Positions 4,632 to 39,149 of a DNA stretch of 45,219 nucleotides are shown here, in pieces. The translations under genes and the position numbers were made by a program. The notes under the pieces were generated by a model that did not search any database, was not told the origin of the DNA, and saw nothing but the letters and a program-made list of their open reading frames with translations. The DNA comes from a virus, in IMG/VR virus record IMGVR_UViG_3300050821_020271, positions 1-45,219 of that record; one strand, 5' to 3'. Each line of letters opens with the position of its first letter. The first letter of the stretch is position 1.

Positions 4632-7600
4632 TTAGCTGGTTCCGACAAGCCGCATGTACGGCATAATTCCCGAGCCAGCTGCAGTCTGCGAGATCGCCGA
4701 CAGCGCGACTGACACCGGAAGATTCGTTTGGCCTGCAGAGGAGAAGAGCCCGAAGCCTTCCATCCACGCGCCGATGGGATTGCCACCGGAGACGCCACCG
4801 TTACTGAATTGCGACGAGACGGAGCCTATCGGCGCGAGCACGTTCTTCACCGTATTGATGGCGCCGCCCACATACGACACGCTGATGCCAACGTTGACGC
4901 TCGACGTCGATCCCGCGTTGAATAACCCGAGCCAATAGTTGCCCGGGGACATCGTGCTGTTGATATTCAAACCGACCAGCTTAAAACTGGCATAGTTGCT
5001 CGTAATGTTGAGGCCCGCGCTCGCAGTGGTCGCGGTCCCATAGCCCGTCTGGTTCGAGGTCGTCGGCTGATTAAACGTGTAACTTGAGTTATTGCCGGTG
5101 ACTCCGAGCGAGAAAGAGCCCGACATGATCGTGCCGATCGTCGTGCTGTTCGTGCCCGTACCGCGCGTATAGATGCCCCACGACTGGGTAAGAGTCTGGC
5201 GACCAGAAGAGGTGCCGACCGTCAAGAAGGCCATCGACTGGATGACCTGCAGATACCCAGCGTTGACGTACATTGGCAGCACAAACGGGAAGAATGAGGC
5301 CTGGCCCGAGCTCACGCTGTTAGCCGTGAAGGTCGCGCTTGCCGTCCCCATAAACGGATTGATCTCAAACTCATTGGCCGCCCCGAAGCTCGAGCCCACG
5401 CCGATGATGCTGAGCGTGCTGCCCGCGGTCGAGATCGAGATGCCGCTCACGCCGACGACGCTCGTCTGCGGCGGGACGCTCGCTGTCAGCGTGCCGCGGG
5501 AGTCGAGCCCGAAGGTGACGTTGTTGGCGTTCCCGAAGGTGATGGACGCGAGGTTTGCGCTGGTCGTGCCGGCGGAGAAGTTGATGCTGCCGCCACCTCC
5601 ACCGCCCGTGGCGCTGATGACGAGCGAGCCATTCGACATGCCGACGGAGATGATGCCGGCGCCGTTGAGCGTGATGCTGCGCGCGTCGAAGGTGGCGCTC
5701 GTGTTGTCGGTCGTGTTGCCGGCCGCGAAGAAGCCGAGCGTTTGGTTCGATTGGGCGGCGACCGAGCCCGTGATCGTCGTGCCGTCGTATCCGAAGGAGA
5801 CACCGTTGGCGTTGCCGAAGGTGACGGCGGAGACGAGCGAGCTCGAGGCGCCGGCGGAGATCTTGATCGCAGCAAGCCCGCCGCCCTGAAAGCCCTGGGC
5901 TCCTTGAAAACCCTGGAAGCCCTGCGAGCCTTGAAAGCCCTGCGCTCCCGTCGCGCCCTGAAAGCCTTGGTTTCCTTGGGCGCCGGTCGCCCCTTGCGCG
6001 CCTTGCAGGCCCGTCGCGCCTTGGGCCCCCTGATTGCCCTGATTTCCTTGGTTGCCTTGAAGCCCCTGCGCGCCCGTCGCCCCCTGCGCACCTTGGTTCC
6101 CCTGGTTGCCCTGAAACCCCTGCGAGCCTTGAGCGCCGGTTGCTCCCTGCGCTCCCTGATTTCCCTGGTTGCCTTGGAAGCCCTGCGGCCCTTGAGCGCC
6201 CGTGGCTCCCTGAAAACCCTGCGCGCCTTGTAGCCCCGTCGCACCTTGAAAGCCCTGGTTTCCTTGGTTGCCCTGGAAACCCTGATTGCCTTGGAAGCCT
6301 TGCGCTCCGCCGCTGATGAGGATGGAGCCGTTCGTGAAGCCGACCGAGATCCCGAGCGCGCCATTGAGCGTGATGCTGCGCGCGTCGAAGGTGGCGCTCG
6401 TGTTGTCGGTCGTGTTGCCCGTCGCGAAGAAGGCGAGCGTTTGATTCGACTGCGCAGGAGCGACGCCAGTCATGACGCCGCCGTTCAGACCGAAGGAGAT
6501 GCCGCCCGCGTTGTCAAACGTGATGGCTGAGAGGTTCCCGCTCGTCGTGCCGGCCGAGAAGTTGACCGCAGACAAGAGCCCGGCGGTGCTCGGCACCGTG
6601 TAGCTCGCCGTGATCTGCGAGCTCCCCGACATCCCGAAGGTGAGGCCGTTACCGTTCGCGAAGACGACGGTACCGCTCGTCGCGAGCTGCGTGCCGGCGC
6701 TGATGGCCGGCATGATGGCGGGGTTGCCTTGAAAGCCCTGCGCGCCTTGGAAGCCCTGAAAACCCTGGTTACCTTGCGCTCCCTGAAAACCCTGCAGCCC
6801 TTGCGCGCCGGTGGCGCCCTGCGCGCCTTGGTTGCCCTGCAGGCCCGTCGCACCCTGGAAGCCTTGCGCTCCCTGCACACCGGTCGCGCCTTGCGCGCCT
6901 TGGTTTCCCTGGTTGCCCTGGAAGCCTTGAAAGCCCTGCGCTCCCGTCGCCCCTTGGAAACCCTGCGCGCCCTGCAGGCCGGTCGCGCCCTGGTTGCCTT
7001 GATTTCCCTGAGCTCCGGTTGCGCCCTGCGCGCCCTGGTTACCCTGCAGGCCCGTGGCGCCTTGCGCGCCCTGATTTCCTTGGTTGCCCTGGTTGCCTTG
7101 AAACCCTTGCGCTCCGGTCGCACCTTGGAAGCCCTGGTTGCCTTGCAGGCCTGTCGCCCCCTGCGCGCCTTGGTTTCCCTGGTTGCCCTGGAAGCCTTGA
7201 AAGCCCTGCGCTCCGGTCGCGCCTTGCGCACCCTGGTTGCCCTGGGCTCCGTTGGCACCTTGCGCGCCTTGGTTGCCTTGTAGGCCCGTCGCGCCCTGCG
7301 CGCCCTGGTTTCCCTGGTTGCCTTGGAAACCCTGAAACCCCTGCGCTCCGGTGGCGCCTTGGAAGCCTTGGTTGCCCTGAAACCCCTGCGCGCCTTGGAA
7401 GCCCTGCGCGCCCATCACGCCGCTCACGACGACCGAGCCGTTGCTGATCCCGATCGAGAGATCGCCCGCCCCCGCGAACGTGACGCTCCTCATATCGAAC
7501 GACCCGCTCGTGCCGAGGGTGGTGTTCGAGACAGCGAAGAAGCTGAGGATCGGGTTGACGCTCGCGGTCATCGTGCCGCGAGAATCGAGACCGAAGGAGA

Positions 7601-8882
7601 CGTTGTTCGCGTTGCCGAAAGTGATCGCAGAGAGGCTTGCGCTGGTCGTGCCGGCACTGAAATTGATGCTGCCGTTGCCGCCGCCACCGCCGCCCGTCGC
7701 ACTGATGACGAGCGTATTGCCCGTGATGCCGACCGAGATAATCCCTGCGCCCGAGATCTCCATCGAGCGCGCATCGAAGGTGCCGCTCGAGCTGAGCGTC
7801 GTGTTGCCCAGACCGAAGAAGCCGATCGATTGGTTCGACTGCGCGGGAGCGACGCCCGTGATGACGCCGCCGGCAAGACCGAAGCTGACGCCGCCTGCGT
7901 TGCCGAAGGTAACGGCGGAGAGGTTGCCGCTCGTCGTACCGGCCGAGAAGTTAACGAACGACAGCAGCCCAGCGGTGTTTGGGACGGTGTAGCTGCCGGT
8001 GATCTGATTCGATCCCGACATCCCGAAGGTGAGCCCATTCGAGTTTACGAACGCCACCGTCCCGCTCGTCGCGAGCTGAGTGCCGGCACTGATCGCGGGG
8101 CTGAAAGCGGCTTGTCCTTGGAAGCCCTGCGCGCCCTGAAAGCCTTGTGCTCCTTGCGCGCCGGTCGCGCCTTGGAAGCCTTGCGATCCTTGCGTGCCCG
8201 TGGCTCCCTGCGCCCCTTGGTTGCCCTGCGCGCCGGTCGTGCCTTGGGTGCCCGTCGCGCCCTGAGATCCCTGATTGCCTTGCGAGCCCTGCGCTCCCGT
8301 CGTGCCCTGTGCGCCGGTGTTGCCTTGAGCTCCCTGACTGCCTTGCAAGCCCTGCGAGCCCGCGGTGCCGGCCGTGCCTTGAAGGCCCTGTGCGCCCTGG
8401 AAGCCTTGCGAGCCCTGCGTGCCAGTGGCGCCCTGCGCGCCGGTCGTCCCTTGGGCGCCGGTTGCTCCCTGCGAGCCCTGGCTGCCCTGTTGGCCCTGCG
8501 CGCCGGTCGTGCCCTGAGCGCCCGTCGATCCCTGTGAGCCTTGGGCACCAGCGCTGCCCTGCGTGCCCGTCGCGCCTTGGTTACCCTGGAAACCTTGCGT
8601 GCCCTGCGCGCCGGTCCCTTGGCTACCCTGCGTGCCCGTCGCGCCCTGGTTGCCTTGAAAACCTTGGGCGCCTTGGAAGCCGGCGCCTTGCGTGCCTTGG
8701 AAGCCCTGAGCGCCTTGATTCCCTTGGAAACCCTGCGCTCCCTGGAAACCGGCACCCTGCGTGCCTTGGGCCCCCTGCGCGCCCTGGAAGCCCTGGGCTC
8801 CCTGCATGCCCGTGCCCCCGCCGCCTGGCGGAATTCGCGCAGTGCCGCGGGCAGAAGCGCCAAGCTTGGCGCGGTTGGTCAT
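4632..8882 (-). CDS. Giant collagen-like fibre protein (1416 aa)
   Basis: Three long Gly-X-Y tracts occupy about residues 24-257, 491-720 and 860-1000. Triplets are almost all [18 protein letters not shown] or GTQ: Gln or Thr in the Y position, essentially no proline and no charge. Between the tracts lie beta modules built on the pattern NFSAGTTS-x-LSA-TFGNA-x-VSFGL, paired with GNTT-(S)-FDARS modules. The last 250 residues form a separate Ser/Thr/Asn-rich C-terminal domain ending MRLVGTS. Family knowledge: collagen-like tracts occur in phage tail fibres, where they make trimeric rods. By inference this is a long side or tail fibre with the receptor tip at the C terminus. Confidence 0.9.
5884..6305 (-). 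repeat. Tandem Gly-X-Y coding repeats, tract 3
   Basis: About 140 codons of imperfect 9-base repeats within the fibre gene encode uninterrupted Gly-X-Gln/Thr triplets. Higher-order units such as [13 protein letters not shown] recur, suggesting growth by unequal recombination. Confidence 0.9.
6721..7410 (-). repeat. Tandem Gly-X-Y coding repeats, tract 2
   Basis: About 230 codons of Gly-X-Y triplets in the fibre gene. A longer unit ([19 protein letters not shown]) recurs several times nearly unchanged, so copy-number change here would alter fibre length in frame. Confidence 0.9.
8110..8813 (-). repeat. Tandem Gly-X-Y coding repeats, tract 1
   Basis: About 235 codons of Gly-X-Y triplets near the N terminus of the fibre protein. 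Two one-residue interruptions (GAGFQG at about residues 43 and 67) break the triplet phase and could make kinks in the rod. This tract uses more Thr and Ser than the other two. Confidence 0.9.
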
Positions 8883-17347: not shown

Positions 17348-17602
17348 ATGGCCAAGAAGGTTCATATCCCGAGGACGGTCCACAACATCAAGGATCCGTG
17401 CGATCGTAGCCTCACCCTATGCGGTCGCTTCATCTCAGAATTAGCCGAGGGTCAGCTGATCCGGAACGGCTCCATCTGCGAAGCCACGTGCTTGGTCTGC
17501 CTCGGCTCTGACGACCGCCTTCAGATCCTCGCCCACCAGCGCGAGTGCGCGGCCGCCAAGATCGATCCCAATACTCTTAAGCCCCTGAGAAGGACCGTAT
17601 GA
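17348..17602 (+). CDS. Cys-containing small protein, first of rightward block
   Basis: An 84-residue protein with cysteines arranged DPCDRSLTLCGRF, then ICEATCLVCLG, consistent with a zinc site (C-x-C-x-x-C cluster). A related arrangement is seen in the product at 18186. It opens the rightward block opposite the leftward promoter. Not recognised as a named family. Confidence 0.65.
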   Translation: MAKKVHIPRTVHNIKDPCDRSLTLCGRFISELAEGQLIRNGSICEATCLVCLGSDDRLQILAHQRECAAAKIDPNTLKPLRRTV

Positions 17603-18186
17603 ACATCTTCGTCCTTGATGAAGACCCAGCGAAAGCGGCTCGCGATCTGTGCAACAAGCACGTCGTCAAAATGCTCATCGAATCAGCACAGATCTTGTCA
17701 ACCGTGTATCGCCTAGCGATGGAAGAGAGGGAGAACCTCCCAGCTAAAGACGCGGAGATGTACTCTCGGTTGTACAAAGCGACCCACATCCATCACCCCG
17801 TGACTCAATGGGTCCGAAGTTCCATTCACAATACTGACTGGCTCTGGCAACACTTGTTGGCGATTGAAAGCGAGTACAACGCTCGGTACAATCCACGCCG
17901 CGAAAAGCAACACAAAGCCGGGGCAGTGATCCGAGCGCTGAGCGGGCATCGTTTGAAGGGTCACGGTGACTGGCGATTCCACACGCCGTTCGTGCAGTGC
18001 ATGCCAGAGCAGTACCAGAGCCAAGACGATGCAGTTACGGCTTACCGCGCATTCTATCGCGGTGAGAAAGCGAGATTTGCGAAATGGCAGCCGCACGCAG
18101 CCGAGCCGTCCTGGTGGGCAGCGTTGCCGGCGTTCGCCAAGATCTACTCGAACACTCTTGAGCCTATCCACCGAGGACGTGACTGA
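17599..18186 (+). CDS. Conserved phage protein, MNIFVLDxDPxxAA family
   Basis: A 195-residue protein of a family I recognise from many tailed phages, notably cyanophages, by its pattern: MNIFVLDEDPAKAARDLCNK, HVVKMLIESAQILST, then YKATHIHHPVTQWVRSS, a W-LW-H helix, and TPFVQCMP. Homologues are usually called hypothetical; some are loosely labelled as pyrimidine-dimer glycosylases, which I cannot support from sequence. Conserved His, Lys and Asp/Glu suggest an enzyme. It overlaps both neighbours, and its position among early genes suggests a DNA or takeover role. Confidence 0.7.
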   Translation: MNIFVLDEDPAKAARDLCNKHVVKMLIESAQILSTVYRLAMEERENLPAKDAEMYSRLYKATHIHHPVTQWVRSSIHNTDWLWQHLLAIESEYNARYNPRREKQHKAGAVIRALSGHRLKGHGDWRFHTPFVQCMPEQYQSQDDAVTAYRAFYRGEKARFAKWQPHAAEPSWWAALPAFAKIYSNTLEPIHRGRD

Positions 18187-20308: not shown

Positions 20309-21463
20309 ATGCAAGTCCACATCGAGCGTACCCATTTCCTCTCCGTCCTGAAGCGCGCCGGCGCTGCTGTCGTGCCCGGGAGCGACCAGATCTACAAGGC
20401 CTGCGTCCTGCTCGCGGCCGAAGACCGCGTGATGGGCACCGGCAACACGGGCGGGATCCTGCTCCGCTCCAACGCCGACACCCTGCACATCAAGTGCGAG
20501 GTGACTGGCGACGTGAGGCGCGCAGGCCGAGCCCTGCTCGGTCACAAGCGCCTATTCAGCATCGTGAGCGAGCTGCCCGCGGGCATCATCGAGCTGACGG
20601 TGAACGACAAGCTCCAGGTCAAGATCAAGAGCTTGTCCAGCAAGCGGCACTTCACCATGCAGTCCCACGATCCGGAAAGCTTCCCGCCCTTGCTCGCTCA
20701 GGAGGCCGGGGAGACCCTGTTTGGGATCGAGGCGAAGATCTTCCAGCAGGCGGCCGAGGAGACGACCTTCCTGGTGGACAAGAGCTACGTGGATGGCGTG
20801 CTACTTTCGCCGGTCGACGACAAGCGCTTCGGGCTCATCGGTATGAGCGGGCGGGGGTTAGCGGTCGCGACGGCTTGGTTTACCAAGAGCACGTCCCGAA
20901 AGGAGCTCGTCATCCCTCGAGCGCTCTTGGATGCCGTCAGCGTGCTCCCAGGGGACCAGACGGAGCTGCTCGTGCAAGCCACCGATCGGCACGTCACCGT
21001 CTCGTGCCCGGGAACCACGATCAGCTGCGACCAGCTGCAGAGTAGCTTCCCCTCCGTCTGGGAGAGCATCCTGGCTGCGGCTCCGAAGGAGAAGCGCTTC
21101 CGGATGAGCTCGACGGCGCTGCTCGAGAGCGTGCGTGCGGTCAGTGTGGCGGCCGAGGTCGAAGGCGAGGAGCGCTTCGTGCAGATCGATCTCTCTTACC
21201 GGAACAGCGAGTGCTTGGTCTCGACCCGGAAGAGCGCCACCAACTTCGGCGAAGACGAGCTGGTGGTGACCGACCCGTCGCCGGGGGAGTGCGTGATCCA
21301 TATGGATGGACAGCGGCTGAGTCAGGCGCTGAGGGCGTTCGAGCCAGCGGAGATCGATGTCTACTACGACGTCATCTACAACCAGGAGGCGCTCCTCCTC
21401 AAGAACGAAAACCTCTCGATTGCGCTGACGCCCATCTCGGACATCAAAGCGAAGGGCGGCTGA
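20309..21463 (+). CDS. dnaN: DNA polymerase III beta subunit (sliding clamp)
   Basis: A 384-residue protein with the length and three-domain layout of bacterial DnaN. The N terminus MQVHIERTHFLSVLKRAG matches the first clamp helix and strand. Visible family positions include RALLGHKRLFSIVSELP in domain 1 and LPGDQTELLVQATDRHVTVS, SFPSVWESILAAA and RFRMSSTALLESVRAV in domains 2-3. The C terminus (LSIALTPISDIKAKGG) lacks the usual PMR ending. A GTG at 20294 in the same frame is possible, but the ATG at 20309 gives the standard start. The clamp rings DNA and tethers the replicative polymerase, which is not in this window. Confidence 0.85.
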   Translation: MQVHIERTHFLSVLKRAGAAVVPGSDQIYKACVLLAAEDRVMGTGNTGGILLRSNADTLHIKCEVTGDVRRAGRALLGHKRLFSIVSELPAGIIELTVNDKLQVKIKSLSSKRHFTMQSHDPESFPPLLAQEAGETLFGIEAKIFQQAAEETTFLVDKSYVDGVLLSPVDDKRFGLIGMSGRGLAVATAWFTKSTSRKELVIPRALLDAVSVLPGDQTELLVQATDRHVTVSCPGTTISCDQLQSSFPSVWESILAAAPKEKRFRMSSTALLESVRAVSVAAEVEGEERFVQIDLSYRNSECLVSTRKSATNFGEDELVVTDPSPGECVIHMDGQRLSQALRAFEPAEIDVYYDVIYNQEALLLKNENLSIALTPISDIKAKGG

Positions 21464-21885
21464 TGGGCAAGCCCACAAAGAAACCGGCGCCGCCCGCTAA
21501 CGTTATCCCGCTGCCTCCTGACTGGAAGTCGGCCTTTCAGGGGCACGCGATGCGGACGTCGTTCTGTCTGGCGCTGACGCAGCCGATGCTGGAATTCCTG
21601 TGCGCGACGGCGGATGGCGTGCACTGGGACAGATACCTCTACCATCGCCAGTTTGGCATGGCGAAACCGGACAGTATGTTTGCCTCGGGAGACGCCCTGA
21701 TCAAACGCGGACTCATTGAGCGGCTCGGGCGAGCAGAGATCAGTGGGCAGCCGATGTCCGAATACCACTTGCATGCTCACTACCGACTGACACCAGCAGG
21801 CGAAGCGCTCGTCGCGCTGCTGAAGGTGGCTGGAATTTTCATCGAAGCCGACGCGGCGATCGAGAAGAGGACTAAGGCCCGATGA
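21463..21885 (+). CDS. Winged-helix-like protein (140 aa)
   Basis: Starts at the ATG overlapping the dnaN stop (TGATG). After a Lys/Pro tail, residues about 40-120 have the layout of a small winged helix: MLEFLCATADGVHWDRYLY, a recognition-helix candidate ASGDALIKRGLIERLG, and a wing ending HYRLTPAGEALVALLK. This suggests DNA binding, perhaps as a regulator or phage replication accessory. Confidence in the fold is moderate and the target is unknown. Confidence 0.6.
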   Translation: MGKPTKKPAPPANVIPLPPDWKSAFQGHAMRTSFCLALTQPMLEFLCATADGVHWDRYLYHRQFGMAKPDSMFASGDALIKRGLIERLGRAEISGQPMSEYHLHAHYRLTPAGEALVALLKVAGIFIEADAAIEKRTKAR

Positions 21886-22193
21886 CCGATCCCGTGTACC
21901 CCAAGCATCATCCTTGGGATCTCGAGCCCCACTACACCCGCCACGTGGGCGCGATGACCAGCGAAGCGCTCCACAGCAAGGCCGACATTGCGATCCAGCT
22001 CGCGTGGCGGGATCAGGAGATCGAGCGGCTACGCAGAGGCCTCCGGAGGCTGGAGAGTTTGCCTGAACGATTCAGCCTGAGCGTTTTTCATAATGCTGGG
22101 CTGTGTCTCCAGGATGCCTCGACCGCGCTGCTCGTGGCGAGGCGCATCCTCGAAGATGCCGAGAACGAGCCTCTCCCCAAGGAAGCCCCATGA
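21882..22193 (+). CDS. Unrecognised helical protein (103 aa)
   Basis: A 103-residue protein with a basic coiled-coil-like middle (RDQEIERLRRGLRRLESL) and a second helix near the C terminus. It overlaps both neighbours by ATGA. No family recognised. Confidence 0.6.
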   Translation: MTDPVYPKHHPWDLEPHYTRHVGAMTSEALHSKADIAIQLAWRDQEIERLRRGLRRLESLPERFSLSVFHNAGLCLQDASTALLVARRILEDAENEPLPKEAP

Positions 22194-22819
22194 CCGAGCC
22201 CATCCCCATGCGCCTGTGCTGCGAAGGCTGCGGCAAGCTCCACATCGACGAGGGGGAGTTCGCGAGCAAGCCCCACCACACGCACTCGTGTCAGTACTGC
22301 GGTCTCACTTGGCGACCCGCGGTCGTGCACACCGTCGGCGTGCAGTTTCTGCCCGGCTTCAAGAACGATCCCCTCCCTCTCGCGATAGGCCCCATCGAAG
22401 CGGGATCTCAGTGGACCCGGATCACCGACGGCAAGCGCGTCACGGTGAAGGAGCACAGCGGCAGCTGCGTCACACTAGAAGGCATTCCGGAGACAAGGTA
22501 CGCTGAAGGGTCCTTCCGGCAGCACTTCCGACCGGACAAGCCCATTACGAATGTCGTCGACGACGTCGTTATTCGTTGCGTCTTCGCGGGCGAGGAGTGC
22601 GCGATCACAATCGATCCGAGCGCGCCTCTGAGCGAGGTGTGTCGGCGCCTGCGCGTACGCACGCATCGCGAATCACGACCCACGTCGGATTGGGAGATCC
22701 GAAACATCCACGGTCAACTCTTGCCTCAGCATGTGCGGATCCAAGACGTACCGGGCCTGCAGGATTGCGCCCGCAAGGTGGGGCTCCACATCAGTCTCCC
22801 CGTCGGCAGCGGCGGATGA
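22190..22819 (+). CDS. Zinc ribbon plus ubiquitin-like protein ending in Gly-Gly
   Basis: A 209-residue protein in three parts. Residues 8-40 are a zinc ribbon (CEGC at 11-14, CQYC at 34-37). Residues about 70-118 form a small beta module (GSQWTRITDGKRVTVKEH). Residues about 125-209 follow the ubiquitin order: strand pair VVIRCVFAGEECAITIDPSA, helix LSEVCRRLRV, strand DWEIRNIHGQLL, a short IQDVPG turn, and final strand VGLHISLPVGSGG ending in Gly208-Gly209. Bacterial ubiquitin-like domains of the DUF2604/multiubiquitin kind share the DWE-R--xG-LL and LHLSL-xG-GG spacing. No E1, E2 or JAB peptidase gene is seen here, so conjugation is a hypothesis. The ATG overlaps the upstream stop. Confidence 0.65.
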   Translation: MTEPIPMRLCCEGCGKLHIDEGEFASKPHHTHSCQYCGLTWRPAVVHTVGVQFLPGFKNDPLPLAIGPIEAGSQWTRITDGKRVTVKEHSGSCVTLEGIPETRYAEGSFRQHFRPDKPITNVVDDVVIRCVFAGEECAITIDPSAPLSEVCRRLRVRTHRESRPTSDWEIRNIHGQLLPQHVRIQDVPGLQDCARKVGLHISLPVGSGG

Positions 22820-23025
22820 ACAAACTCACCTCACTCCAAAACGTGCTCGCGCTGGCAGCGATCGCTGGCGCGGGCTCCATGGGTGTCGGCGGCGCCTCGC
22901 CACCGGCGCGCGACTGGTGCGTCCGCTGCCAAGGCCGCGGCAAGCACTCGGCCCTCGTGAAGAGCGTCACCGGCGCTCGCTACTGTCACCGCTGCGGCTA
23001 CTTCGAATCGAAAGACAAACCATGA
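22816..23025 (+). CDS. Small protein with N-terminal hydrophobic segment and zinc ribbon
   Basis: Starts at the ATG in an ATGA overlap, 69 residues. A hydrophobic, Gly/Ala-rich N terminus (VLALAAIAGAGSMGVGGA) is followed by CVRCQGRGKHSAL and YCHRCGYFES, a clear four-Cys ribbon. The N terminus is only weakly signal-like. Function unknown. Confidence 0.6.
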   Translation: MNKLTSLQNVLALAAIAGAGSMGVGGASPPARDWCVRCQGRGKHSALVKSVTGARYCHRCGYFESKDKP

Positions 23026-23132
23026 CCTGGACGATCTTCTTCATTGGCGTGCTGGTCGGCGGCGCTCTCCGCTCCTGGCAACTCAAGCACCTGCAGAGCG
23101 ATGGATACAAGCGGCGGAACAACATCAAATGA
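23022..23132 (+). CDS. 36-residue single-pass membrane peptide
   Basis: ATG at 23022 and TGA at 23130-23132, overlapping both neighbours by ATGA. One hydrophobic segment (WTIFFIGVLVGGAL) is followed by a polar, basic tail, so it should be a small inner-membrane peptide. Confidence 0.6.
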   Translation: MTWTIFFIGVLVGGALRSWQLKHLQSDGYKRRNNIK

Positions 23133-36641: not shown

Positions 36642-39149
36642 GTGACGAGTCCCAACCAATTACCCCCCGCAGGCGGAGTAGTCCCCGGACGCTACCCGCC
36701 GATGGATCTCGATGCCGAGCGCGATGTGCTCGGCCAATGCATCATCGTCCCCGGTGACATCGATCTGGTGATCGGTTGGGGCCTTCAGCCCGGGCACTTC
36801 TCTCAAGATCAGAACCGTCGCATCTTCGATGCGATCTTGCGCGTCCACGAAGACGCGTCGATGGTGGTCGACGAGGTCGCGCTCGCGGCCGATCTGCGCC
36901 GGAACAACCGCCTCGACCAAGTCGGCGGCACGGTCTACCTGGCGCAGCTCGCGATCATGCCCTTCCAGGTGGAGACCCAACTCCACCAGCGCGTACGCAT
37001 GATCATCGATCACTGGCGCGCTCGCCAAGCGATCTCGATCCAGCAGGTGGGCGTCGCGACGCTCTATCAGCCGCAGGGGACGTTCCTGCAAGAGACGCTC
37101 GAGAGTCTCGAGCAGCAGCTGTGGGAGGTCACGCACGGCGCCGTCCCGACCAGCTACGTCAACGCAGGCCAGCTCGCGCATGACGCGCTCACCGAGATGA
37201 GCGCGCTGCTCGCTTCCGGCCAAAGCATCACTGGACTCACAACGGGGTTTGCCGATCTCGACGCCGTCATTACCGGCTATCACGCGGGCGACCTAGTGGT
37301 GTTGGCCGGACGGCCGGGCATGGGCAAGTGCCTAGGAAGAGGCACTCCGGTGCTGAGGTACGACGGCACAGTGGTGCCCGTCGAGGCCGTGCGCGCGGGA
37401 GATTTGTTGATGGGCCCAGACAGTAAGCCTCGTCGGGTGCTGACAGAAGCCAAGGGGACTGGTCCGCTCTGGAAGATCACGCCGACCAAGGGAGATCCTT
37501 GGATCTGTAACTGGTGTCACGTGCTCACGATGGTGCACAGCAGCGACAACCGAGTGATCGACATGTCACTCGATGAGTACCTGAAGCAGGGTCAGAAGTT
37601 TAAGCACCAGCACAAGTTGTTCTCGGTGGGCGTGGAGTTTCCAGAGACTAAAGCGCCGCTGCCGATTGCGCCGTATGCGCTGGGGTTGTGGTTGGGTGAT
37701 GGGACGAAGTCGTACAAGTTTTCGATCACTAAACCCGACCCAGAGATCCGCCCGGCATTGGAAGAGCTAGCTCGTGTCGAAGGGCTACGATTTGGAGTGC
37801 ATACTCCAACGGGCGGCTCTCGGTGTCCTGAGTTGTACATTCGAAAAGAACGTAAGGGGCATGGGCGCACGTCATCGCTTGTGCAGAAGTTACGGCGACT
37901 GTTCCCTGATCTGAAGAACTTGCAGATCCCGCAGGAGTACCTCGTAGCCAGCGAGCATGACCGGCTGGAGTTGCTGGCTGGGTTAGTGGACACCGATGGG
38001 CATCTAGTGAGCGGCTGCGTCGAGATTGCGCAAAAGTCCCTCGGTATCGCTAGCGGGGTGATGTTCCTGGCTCGCTCGCTCGGTCTTCGCGTCACTTGTC
38101 GCCCAAAGTACGTGAAGGGCATCGCCTATCAACGGATGTTCATCTCGGGAGATCTCGCGCGGATCCCCACGCGCATCCCAAGAAAGAAGCTCCAGCCTCG
38201 CGAGCAGAAAAAGAACGCGCTCCGCACGGGCTTCAAGGTCGAGCCCATCGGGGATGGAGAGTACTTTGGGTTCGAGCTGGATGGCGACGGCCGATTCCTG
38301 CTCGGCGACTTCACGGTAACCCACAACACGGCAGCGCTCTGCTCGAGCCTGCTCCGTGCCACGCGCCCGCCGACTGACGGATCCCCGCCGCCTGCCGCCT
38401 ACCTGCACTCGCTCGAGATGCCGAAAGAGCAGATCGCGCTTCGCTTGGTGTGCTCGTACGCGAGCGTGGAGTTTCAGAAGATCCGGCTCAACAAGCTCCA
38501 GCAGCACGAGTGGAACAAGCTCTTCGACGCCTGCAAGGCGCTGATGGCGCACCCCATCCTGATCGACGACAAGCCCGCGATCACCGTCGCTGAGATCCGG
38601 AGCAACGTCCGAAAAATCAAGCGCGAGATCGAGCTGAAGCGCATCATCGCTTCCGGCCTCGTGCTGGTCGCCATCGACTACCTGCAGTTGATGCGCGGCG
38701 AGCAAGGCCAAGGCCGCGAGCGCGAAGTCGCGTCCCTGACCGCTGGCCTCAAGAACACCGCCAAGACCGAAAAGGTCTGCATGCTGACCCTCGCTCAACT
38801 GAATCGCGGCGTCGAGAACCGTGGCGGCAAAGGCACCGACAAACAGAAGCGCCCGCAGTTGCAAGATCTGCGTGAGAGCGGGGCGATTGAGCAGGATGCC
38901 GACACGGTGATGTTTTTGTTCCGGCCGAAGTACTACGACAAGGAAGTCCAGAACGACACGCTCGAAGTCATCGTCGAGAAAAACCGAAACGGCCCGACTT
39001 GCATCGTGGAGCTTGCCTTCGAAGGGTCGACGATGACGGTCAAGTCGATCGTGAAGGGGTATACGGAGTTCGAGGGGGTCGGCGAAGATGCGGGCCCCGG
39101 TTACTTCAACGACGAAGATCCCCTACCCGAGGACTGGCGGGACAAATGA
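36642..39149 (+). CDS. dnaB: Replicative DnaB helicase with intein in the P-loop
   Basis: An 835-residue precursor; removing the 333-residue intein leaves a 502-residue DnaB. The N-terminal domain begins DLDAERDVLGQCIIVPGDID. The helicase domain has LTTGFADLDAVITGYHAGDL and Walker A GRPGMGK (223-229) interrupted by the intein, resuming TAALCSSLL. Walker B is VLVAIDYLQLM. LAQLNRGVENR, PQLQDLRESGAIEQDAD and IVEKNRNGP follow as in the family. The GTG start has no clear ribosome site; ATG 36702 is an alternative. It unwinds DNA at the phage fork and probably works with the loader at 27354. Confidence 0.9.
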   Translation: MTSPNQLPPAGGVVPGRYPPMDLDAERDVLGQCIIVPGDIDLVIGWGLQPGHFSQDQNRRIFDAILRVHEDASMVVDEVALAADLRRNNRLDQVGGTVYLAQLAIMPFQVETQLHQRVRMIIDHWRARQAISIQQVGVATLYQPQGTFLQETLESLEQQLWEVTHGAVPTSYVNAGQLAHDALTEMSALLASGQSITGLTTGFADLDAVITGYHAGDLVVLAGRPGMGKCLGRGTPVLRYDGTVVPVEAVRAGDLLMGPDSKPRRVLTEAKGTGPLWKITPTKGDPWICNWCHVLTMVHSSDNRVIDMSLDEYLKQGQKFKHQHKLFSVGVEFPETKAPLPIAPYALGLWLGDGTKSYKFSITKPDPEIRPALEELARVEGLRFGVHTPTGGSRCPELYIRKERKGHGRTSSLVQKLRRLFPDLKNLQIPQEYLVASEHDRLELLAGLVDTDGHLVSGCVEIAQKSLGIASGVMFLARSLGLRVTCRPKYVKGIAYQRMFISGDLARIPTRIPRKKLQPREQKKNALRTGFKVEPIGDGEYFGFELDGDGRFLLGDFTVTHNTAALCSSLLRATRPPTDGSPPPAAYLHSLEMPKEQIALRLVCSYASVEFQKIRLNKLQQHEWNKLFDACKALMAHPILIDDKPAITVAEIRSNVRKIKREIELKRIIASGLVLVAIDYLQLMRGEQGQGREREVASLTAGLKNTAKTEKVCMLTLAQLNRGVENRGGKGTDKQKRPQLQDLRESGAIEQDADTVMFLFRPKYYDKEVQNDTLEVIVEKNRNGPTCIVELAFEGSTMTVKSIVKGYTEFEGVGEDAGPGYFNDEDPLPEDWRDK
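37329..38327 (+). mobile_element. Intein with LAGLIDADG-type homing endonuclease
   Basis: Residues 230-562 of the DnaB precursor. The first residue is Cys230 (GMGK-CLGRGTPVLRYDG), the last are His561-Asn562 followed by Thr563, as needed for splicing. Block B contains the His of WCHVLTM. The endonuclease motifs are LGLWLGDGT (347-355) and LLAGLVDTDGH (444-454). The insertion point is the P-loop lysine-threonine junction, a known DnaB intein site. The coding DNA is less GC-rich at third positions than the flanks (for example repeated TTG leucines), a sign of separate origin. Confidence 0.9.

Follow-up and report, generated by a model that had tools for sequence, protein, structure and literature searches.

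Why would a tailed phage encode a protein whose last domain resembles ubiquitin and ends in two exposed glycines? The question is raised by g39, a protein of 209 residues in which a zinc ribbon and a small beta module precede a ubiquitin-like (Ubl) domain similar to BilA of the bacterial Bil system, and which may either serve as a decoy for the tagging machinery of the host or make use of it. Bil links its Ubl to the central tail fibre of the phage (PMC12948488), and this tagging disrupts assembly and infectivity (PMC12948488; PMC11364771), so that a phage would gain by blocking it. None of the open-access papers searched was found to describe a means by which phages counter Bil. A phage protein combining the BilA fold with an exposed glycine tail, with no conjugation enzymes detected beside it, would make the matter directly testable.

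The gene, its neighbours and its N-terminal domains

The window is the entire IMG/VR virus record of 45,219 bases, which covers part of a tailed-phage genome and encodes, among other products, a DnaN-like clamp, ThyX, a DnaB helicase and a collagen-like tail fibre. Within it, g39 is an open reading frame at exactly 22190-22819 on the plus strand, which starts with ATG, encodes the C-terminus ...KVGLHISLPVGSGG* and is picked by a codon-usage gene-calling script. It overlaps both g38 upstream and g40 downstream by four bases. The gene is genuine and belongs to an early operon in which this uncultivated phage packs its genes closely.

The synteny anchor of this operon is g36 (20309-21463, plus strand), a DnaN-like sliding clamp recognised through the Pfam DNA_pol3_beta N-terminal domain. 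Its identity is 95% to the relative L001 and 44-45% to the relatives L002 and L021, and no match to it was obtained in INPHARED by tblastn. The conserved downstream neighbour g40 (22816-23025, plus strand), a small protein whose ATG overlaps the stop codon of the Ubl gene, is 87% identical in L001, 39% in L002 and 34% in L021. The order g35, DnaN g36, g39, g40, g42 and g43 is common to all three relatives.

Other parts of the record carry a UV-repair gene for a pyrimidine-dimer DNA glycosylase (17599-18186; PF03013, E 2.4e-8) and a DnaB-like helicase (36702-39149) that is apparently split by an intein carrying a homing endonuclease; the half of the record holding this helicase gives Hint, Hom_end and LAGLIDADG matches. 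Between 248 and 26500, the encoded proteins include methyltransferase, glycosyltransferase and collagen matches, the last presumably corresponding to the 1,416-residue open reading frame on the minus strand at 4632-8882.

The two domains proposed from the sequence to lie ahead of the Ubl domain, one a zinc ribbon and the other a small beta module, were both recovered. The zinc ribbon (residues 5-60, HIDEGEFA...QFLPGFKN; 22202-22369, plus strand) has 38 relatives in IMG/VR and 6 in INPHARED. Like other members of this phage zinc-ribbon family, g39 carries two CxxC knuckles together with the HIDEGEFA and QFLPGFKN motifs; the knuckles read C11xxC14...C34xxC37, and among the IMG/VR relatives the first, judged by pattern, is kept in 33 of 38 and the second in all 38. 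The N-terminal 60 residues are mostly 60-80% identical in the 38 contigs, but the stand-alone proteins mostly stop soon after the ribbon, unlike g39. In L003-L038 the zinc-ribbon protein measures 55-90 residues, is mostly stand-alone and is strongly conserved in otherwise unrelated phages; a few of these relatives have the ribbon fused to long variable tails. The beta module (residues 70-116; 22397-22537, plus strand) was modelled by AlphaFold with strands at 74-77, 83-90, 93-97 and 103-105 and a pLDDT of about 73-82, and it may be read as SH3/KOW-like. The number of such modules differs between the sequences of L001, L002 and L021.

The C-terminal domain and its glycine tail

Judged by profile comparisons and by its predicted structure, the C-terminal domain (residues 124-209; 22559-22816, plus strand) is a ubiquitin-like beta-grasp domain related to BilA/DUF2604. 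In a Pfam scan of the protein at E<=10, DUF2604 (PF10790) was the sole family reported, with an E-value of 7.6e-5 and 23.5 bits for a curated cut-off of 25, and neither Multi-ubiquitin (PF14452) nor ubiquitin (PF00240) gave a match. The score rose to 25.3 bits, just over the cut-off, in a search of the phage's own record, and the corresponding domain of L001 matched DUF2604 separately and weakly, with 17.2 bits. When a profile combining both phage domains was run against the PDB, with repeat-inflated polyubiquitins set aside, it retrieved the BilA Ubl of 8tyx and 8tyz, the former at 5.7e-5. By using an HMM built from five bacterial BilA domains only, a single match was found among 1,625 six-frame open reading frames of the record and three relatives; this was g39 (E 1e-5), covering positions 3 to 77 of the 81 in the HMM and scoring 22.6 bits against 8.7 for the best of 5,000 shuffles. 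The L001 domain was not reported by this BilA-only HMM. Aligned directly by hhalign, the phage and BilA profiles gave a probability of 93.6% and an E-value of 2e-7.

The structural comparison led to the same family. AlphaFold predicted a strand-strand-helix-strand...strand topology followed by a disordered tail, most pLDDT values lying at 70-90, and the domain modelled from a seven-row alignment reached a pLDDT of 78 and a pTM of 0.69. The input alignments were shallow, comprising two rows (both phage) in the first model and seven rows, five of them BilA, in the re-modelled domain; the two-row model nevertheless returned the same top Foldseek matches. The best PDB match was BilA in the complex of Ubl and DUB (E 2.3e-7, TM 0.85 by target length), followed by BilA in the E1-E2-Ubl complex (E 2.7e-6, TM 0.79 by target length), so the BilA chains of 8tyx and 8tyz outrank NEDD8, SUMO and ubiquitin. 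The original prediction had read a beta-grasp order in the last 85 residues, and the DUF2604 match and predicted fold agree with it: the model is a beta-grasp, with BilA as the best match, and not some other fold. Its choice of DUF2604/Bil as the closest family is likewise upheld by Pfam, the PDB profile and Foldseek. In the motif it quoted, the strand reads LHISL and not LHLSL. No PADLOC model matched the phage Ubl, and none matched the bacterial BilA domain supplied. In Ensifer aridi (L044), a DUF2604 gene is followed by genes matching BilC and BilD, which ties the DUF2604 family to Bil.

As foreseen, the protein ends in an SGG, within the terminal PVGSGG (22799-22816, plus strand). In bacterial Bil systems, BilC is reported to cleave BilA and thereby to open a reactive C-terminal glycine (PMC11354881). 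The bacterial C-termini examined read LSLKAGVAG-A and LSLNAGVAG-V, with one LSLRAGAAG that lacks the trailing residue. In alignment A7 of phage and bacterial sequences, the phage ISLPVGSGG aligns with LSLKAGVAG|A and the last phage glycine falls on the penultimate glycine of BilA, so that the phage protein, ending at this very position, looks pre-matured.

Terminal Gly-Gly alone would be weak evidence; it ends 3 of the 87 genes of the record, DnaN included, and the DnaN pair, which lies at a junction similar to that of g39 and g40, is likewise kept in L001. It carries weight because PVGSGG is identical in L001 despite a Ubl domain only 32% identical. Homologues lacking Gly-Gly did not appear: L001, the sole relative with the domain, keeps it. 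The serine codon of the tail differs between the two phages (AGC and TCC) with the residue unchanged. In comparison with L001, the DNA from 22785 to 23027, with the tail and the start of g40 inside it, is conserved as a whole block, and since the last bases of g39 are shared with the g40 start, this conservation could partly serve translation. The view that Gly-Gly is a mere by-product of the g40 start was rejected on account of the codon difference and the alignment with the BilA tail.

Distribution and divergence of the Ubl domain

Zinc ribbon, beta module and Ubl stand in the same arrangement in L001, the syntenic relative, and it is there that the unequal divergence of the gene becomes apparent: the zinc ribbon is 96% identical and DnaN 95%, against 32% for the Ubl domain. 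The alignment score of the two Ubl domains (94) lies well over the shuffle maximum (45). At the orthologous loci of L002 and L021 the Ubl domain is absent, several beta modules following the zinc ribbon without it, and a search of the rest of those records found no Ubl. Missing at the more distant orthologous loci, the Ubl is an accessory module that varies while the gene bearing it is conserved. A different gene (...HVFWDNDSIWVVAHDADDAALVYAEHIGD...) lies directly upstream of the g40 homologue in both relatives (L002:10896-11468 and L021:10894-11733).

The steep divergence of the Ubl may reflect mosaic exchange, as other genes (the g38 C-terminus, g21 and g22) diverge likewise. The g38 gene (21882-22193), compared with L001:9388-9783, is 94% identical over its first 50 residues and has its C-terminal half replaced; as this is the pattern of g39, two adjacent genes have exchangeable C-termini. 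The idea that base composition would reveal a foreign domain was discarded, the GC content of the Ubl (0.62-0.64) being equal to that of its flanks.

Carriers of the domain were found in two phages only, this record and L001. A tblastn search of INPHARED with the Ubl domain gave no match at E<=10, and pattern-seeded scans of IMG/VR with both phage domains and their two-row alignment returned only the contig of L001. With BilA as query, neither INPHARED nor IMG/VR gave a credible match, and matches in PLSDB were at chance level only. Among genomes related to Methylobacterium, 385 at class level and 398 at phylum level, a profile of alignment A7 recovered only BilA-type genes. Bacterial DUF2604 genes are themselves scarce, occurring in 3 of 297 genomes of one order.

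Possible role and relation to known systems

No E1 (ThiF), Prok-JAB or Prok-E2_B gene was detected in the 45-kb record or in the 35-kb record of L001, and ThiF was likewise not detected in the 135-kb record of L002 or in that of L021. This absence is provisional, the records being fragments whose missing parts may hold the enzymes. Since the partners that define the BilABCD operon were sought and not found, g39 is not called a Bil system. Given the BilA fold, the exposed glycine and the lack of detected partner enzymes, the simplest expectation is that g39 would work through the enzymes of the host, and the suggestion of the original prediction that the protein is conjugated or serves as a decoy becomes more plausible because no E1, E2 or JAB was detected and the glycine is already exposed. 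From sequence and model, g39 is tentatively read as a BilA mimic that engages a putative Bil-type E1 and E2 of the host, probably as a counter-defence decoy, a reading to which we assign a probability of about 0.45. Both its activation by a host E1 and its counter-defence role are inferred.

During infection, the putative host E1 (BilD) and E2 (BilB) would adenylate and thioesterify the phage Gly-Gly, and the charged mimic, on the same tentative footing, would either sponge up the Bil machinery or redirect it to targets that are harmless or favourable to the phage. The phage protein could vie with BilA for these enzymes or occupy the DUB BilC, and the competition would leave less BilA attached to the tail fibre, while the zinc ribbon and beta module might localise the decoy or render its conjugates harmless. 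A fast-changing Ubl domain, absent from L002 and L021 and with its tail alone fixed, is what would be expected of a counter-defence module.

The same fold and the same exposed, conserved Gly-Gly, features of conjugated Ubls, would also suit a phage that hijacks conjugation enzymes, from the host or from phage genes beyond the fragments represented by this record and that of L001, to couple its zinc-ribbon protein covalently to some protein of the host or the virion, to the phage's own advantage and not as a block on defence, with the N-terminal domains bringing function to the target. This is unlikely, given that searches of the phage records detected no enzyme gene, that the 135-kb record of a relative yielded no E1, and that dependence of a basic function on a host Bil, rare as DUF2604 is in the order surveyed, would narrow the host range. 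It is also improbable that the Ubl is a non-covalent binding module with an unused Gly-Gly, kept because the two phages share a recent ancestor and because the tail overlaps the g40 start. The Gly-Gly ends of other genes, that of DnaN among them, and the block conservation of the DNA would fit such a module, but PVGSGG did not change while the domain fell to 32% identity, its serine was retained through a codon change, and the tail aligns with the reactive tail of BilA.

A beta-grasp with a terminal Gly-Gly is a sulfur-carrier design too, and ThiF-family enzymes were near universal in the control genomes, so a MoaD/ThiS/Urm1-like carrier activated by host MoeB or ThiF was considered. BilA and ubiquitin/NEDD8 are closest in sequence and fold, MoaD and ThiS are absent among the Foldseek and Pfam matches listed, and the Pfam matches of the record include no sulfur-related gene; a carrier function is accordingly very unlikely, and this identity was rejected with BilA as the nearest relative in both respects. 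As for a chance resemblance or a model artefact with no Ubl at all, for which a Pfam score just under the cut-off and the shallow alignments might speak, the score above the cut-off in the own-record search and the independent match in L001 count against it, and the HMM, shuffle and fold tests already make it extremely improbable.

The preferred reading, a BilA mimic, has to be set beside what is already known, namely the BilA/DUF2604 kind of Ubl, the ubiquitins of eukaryotic viruses and the Borg SAMP. With BilA (PF10790; 8tyx, 8tyz), g39 shares the beta-grasp (TM 0.85), the sequence family and the LSL-x-x-G-x-x-G tail with its terminal glycine; it differs in being phage-encoded, in having its Ubl joined to a preceding zinc ribbon and beta module, in lacking any detected BilB, BilC or BilD beside it, and in ending at the glycine, where most, not all, BilA proteins examined carry one trailing residue. 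No phage-encoded BilA-like Ubl, nor a zinc-ribbon fusion of one, was found described in the open-access papers searched, which is no proof of priority. Phages do possess tail-assembly proteins with Ubl and JAB domains, of the lambda tail protein I/K type, in tail genes beside a JAB-domain gene; these share with g39 a Ubl-type domain in a phage protein, but g39 sits in a replication-type operon with DnaN and no detected JAB. The baculovirus v-UBI and the Ubls of giant viruses, which appear among the Foldseek matches to the phage domain, are likewise virus-encoded ubiquitin folds, but they belong to eukaryotic viruses and are 7-22% identical to it. To our knowledge, no viral ubiquitin or Ubl carries a zinc-ribbon fusion of this kind. 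A phage BilA mimic would be a prokaryotic parallel to the viral mimicry of ubiquitin in eukaryotes. The Borg-encoded SAMP is of the archaeal SAMP type, not BilA, with no zinc-ribbon fusion described, but it carries a di-glycine tail and, like g39, represents a host-type Ubl with Gly-Gly borne by a mobile element (PMC12660748).
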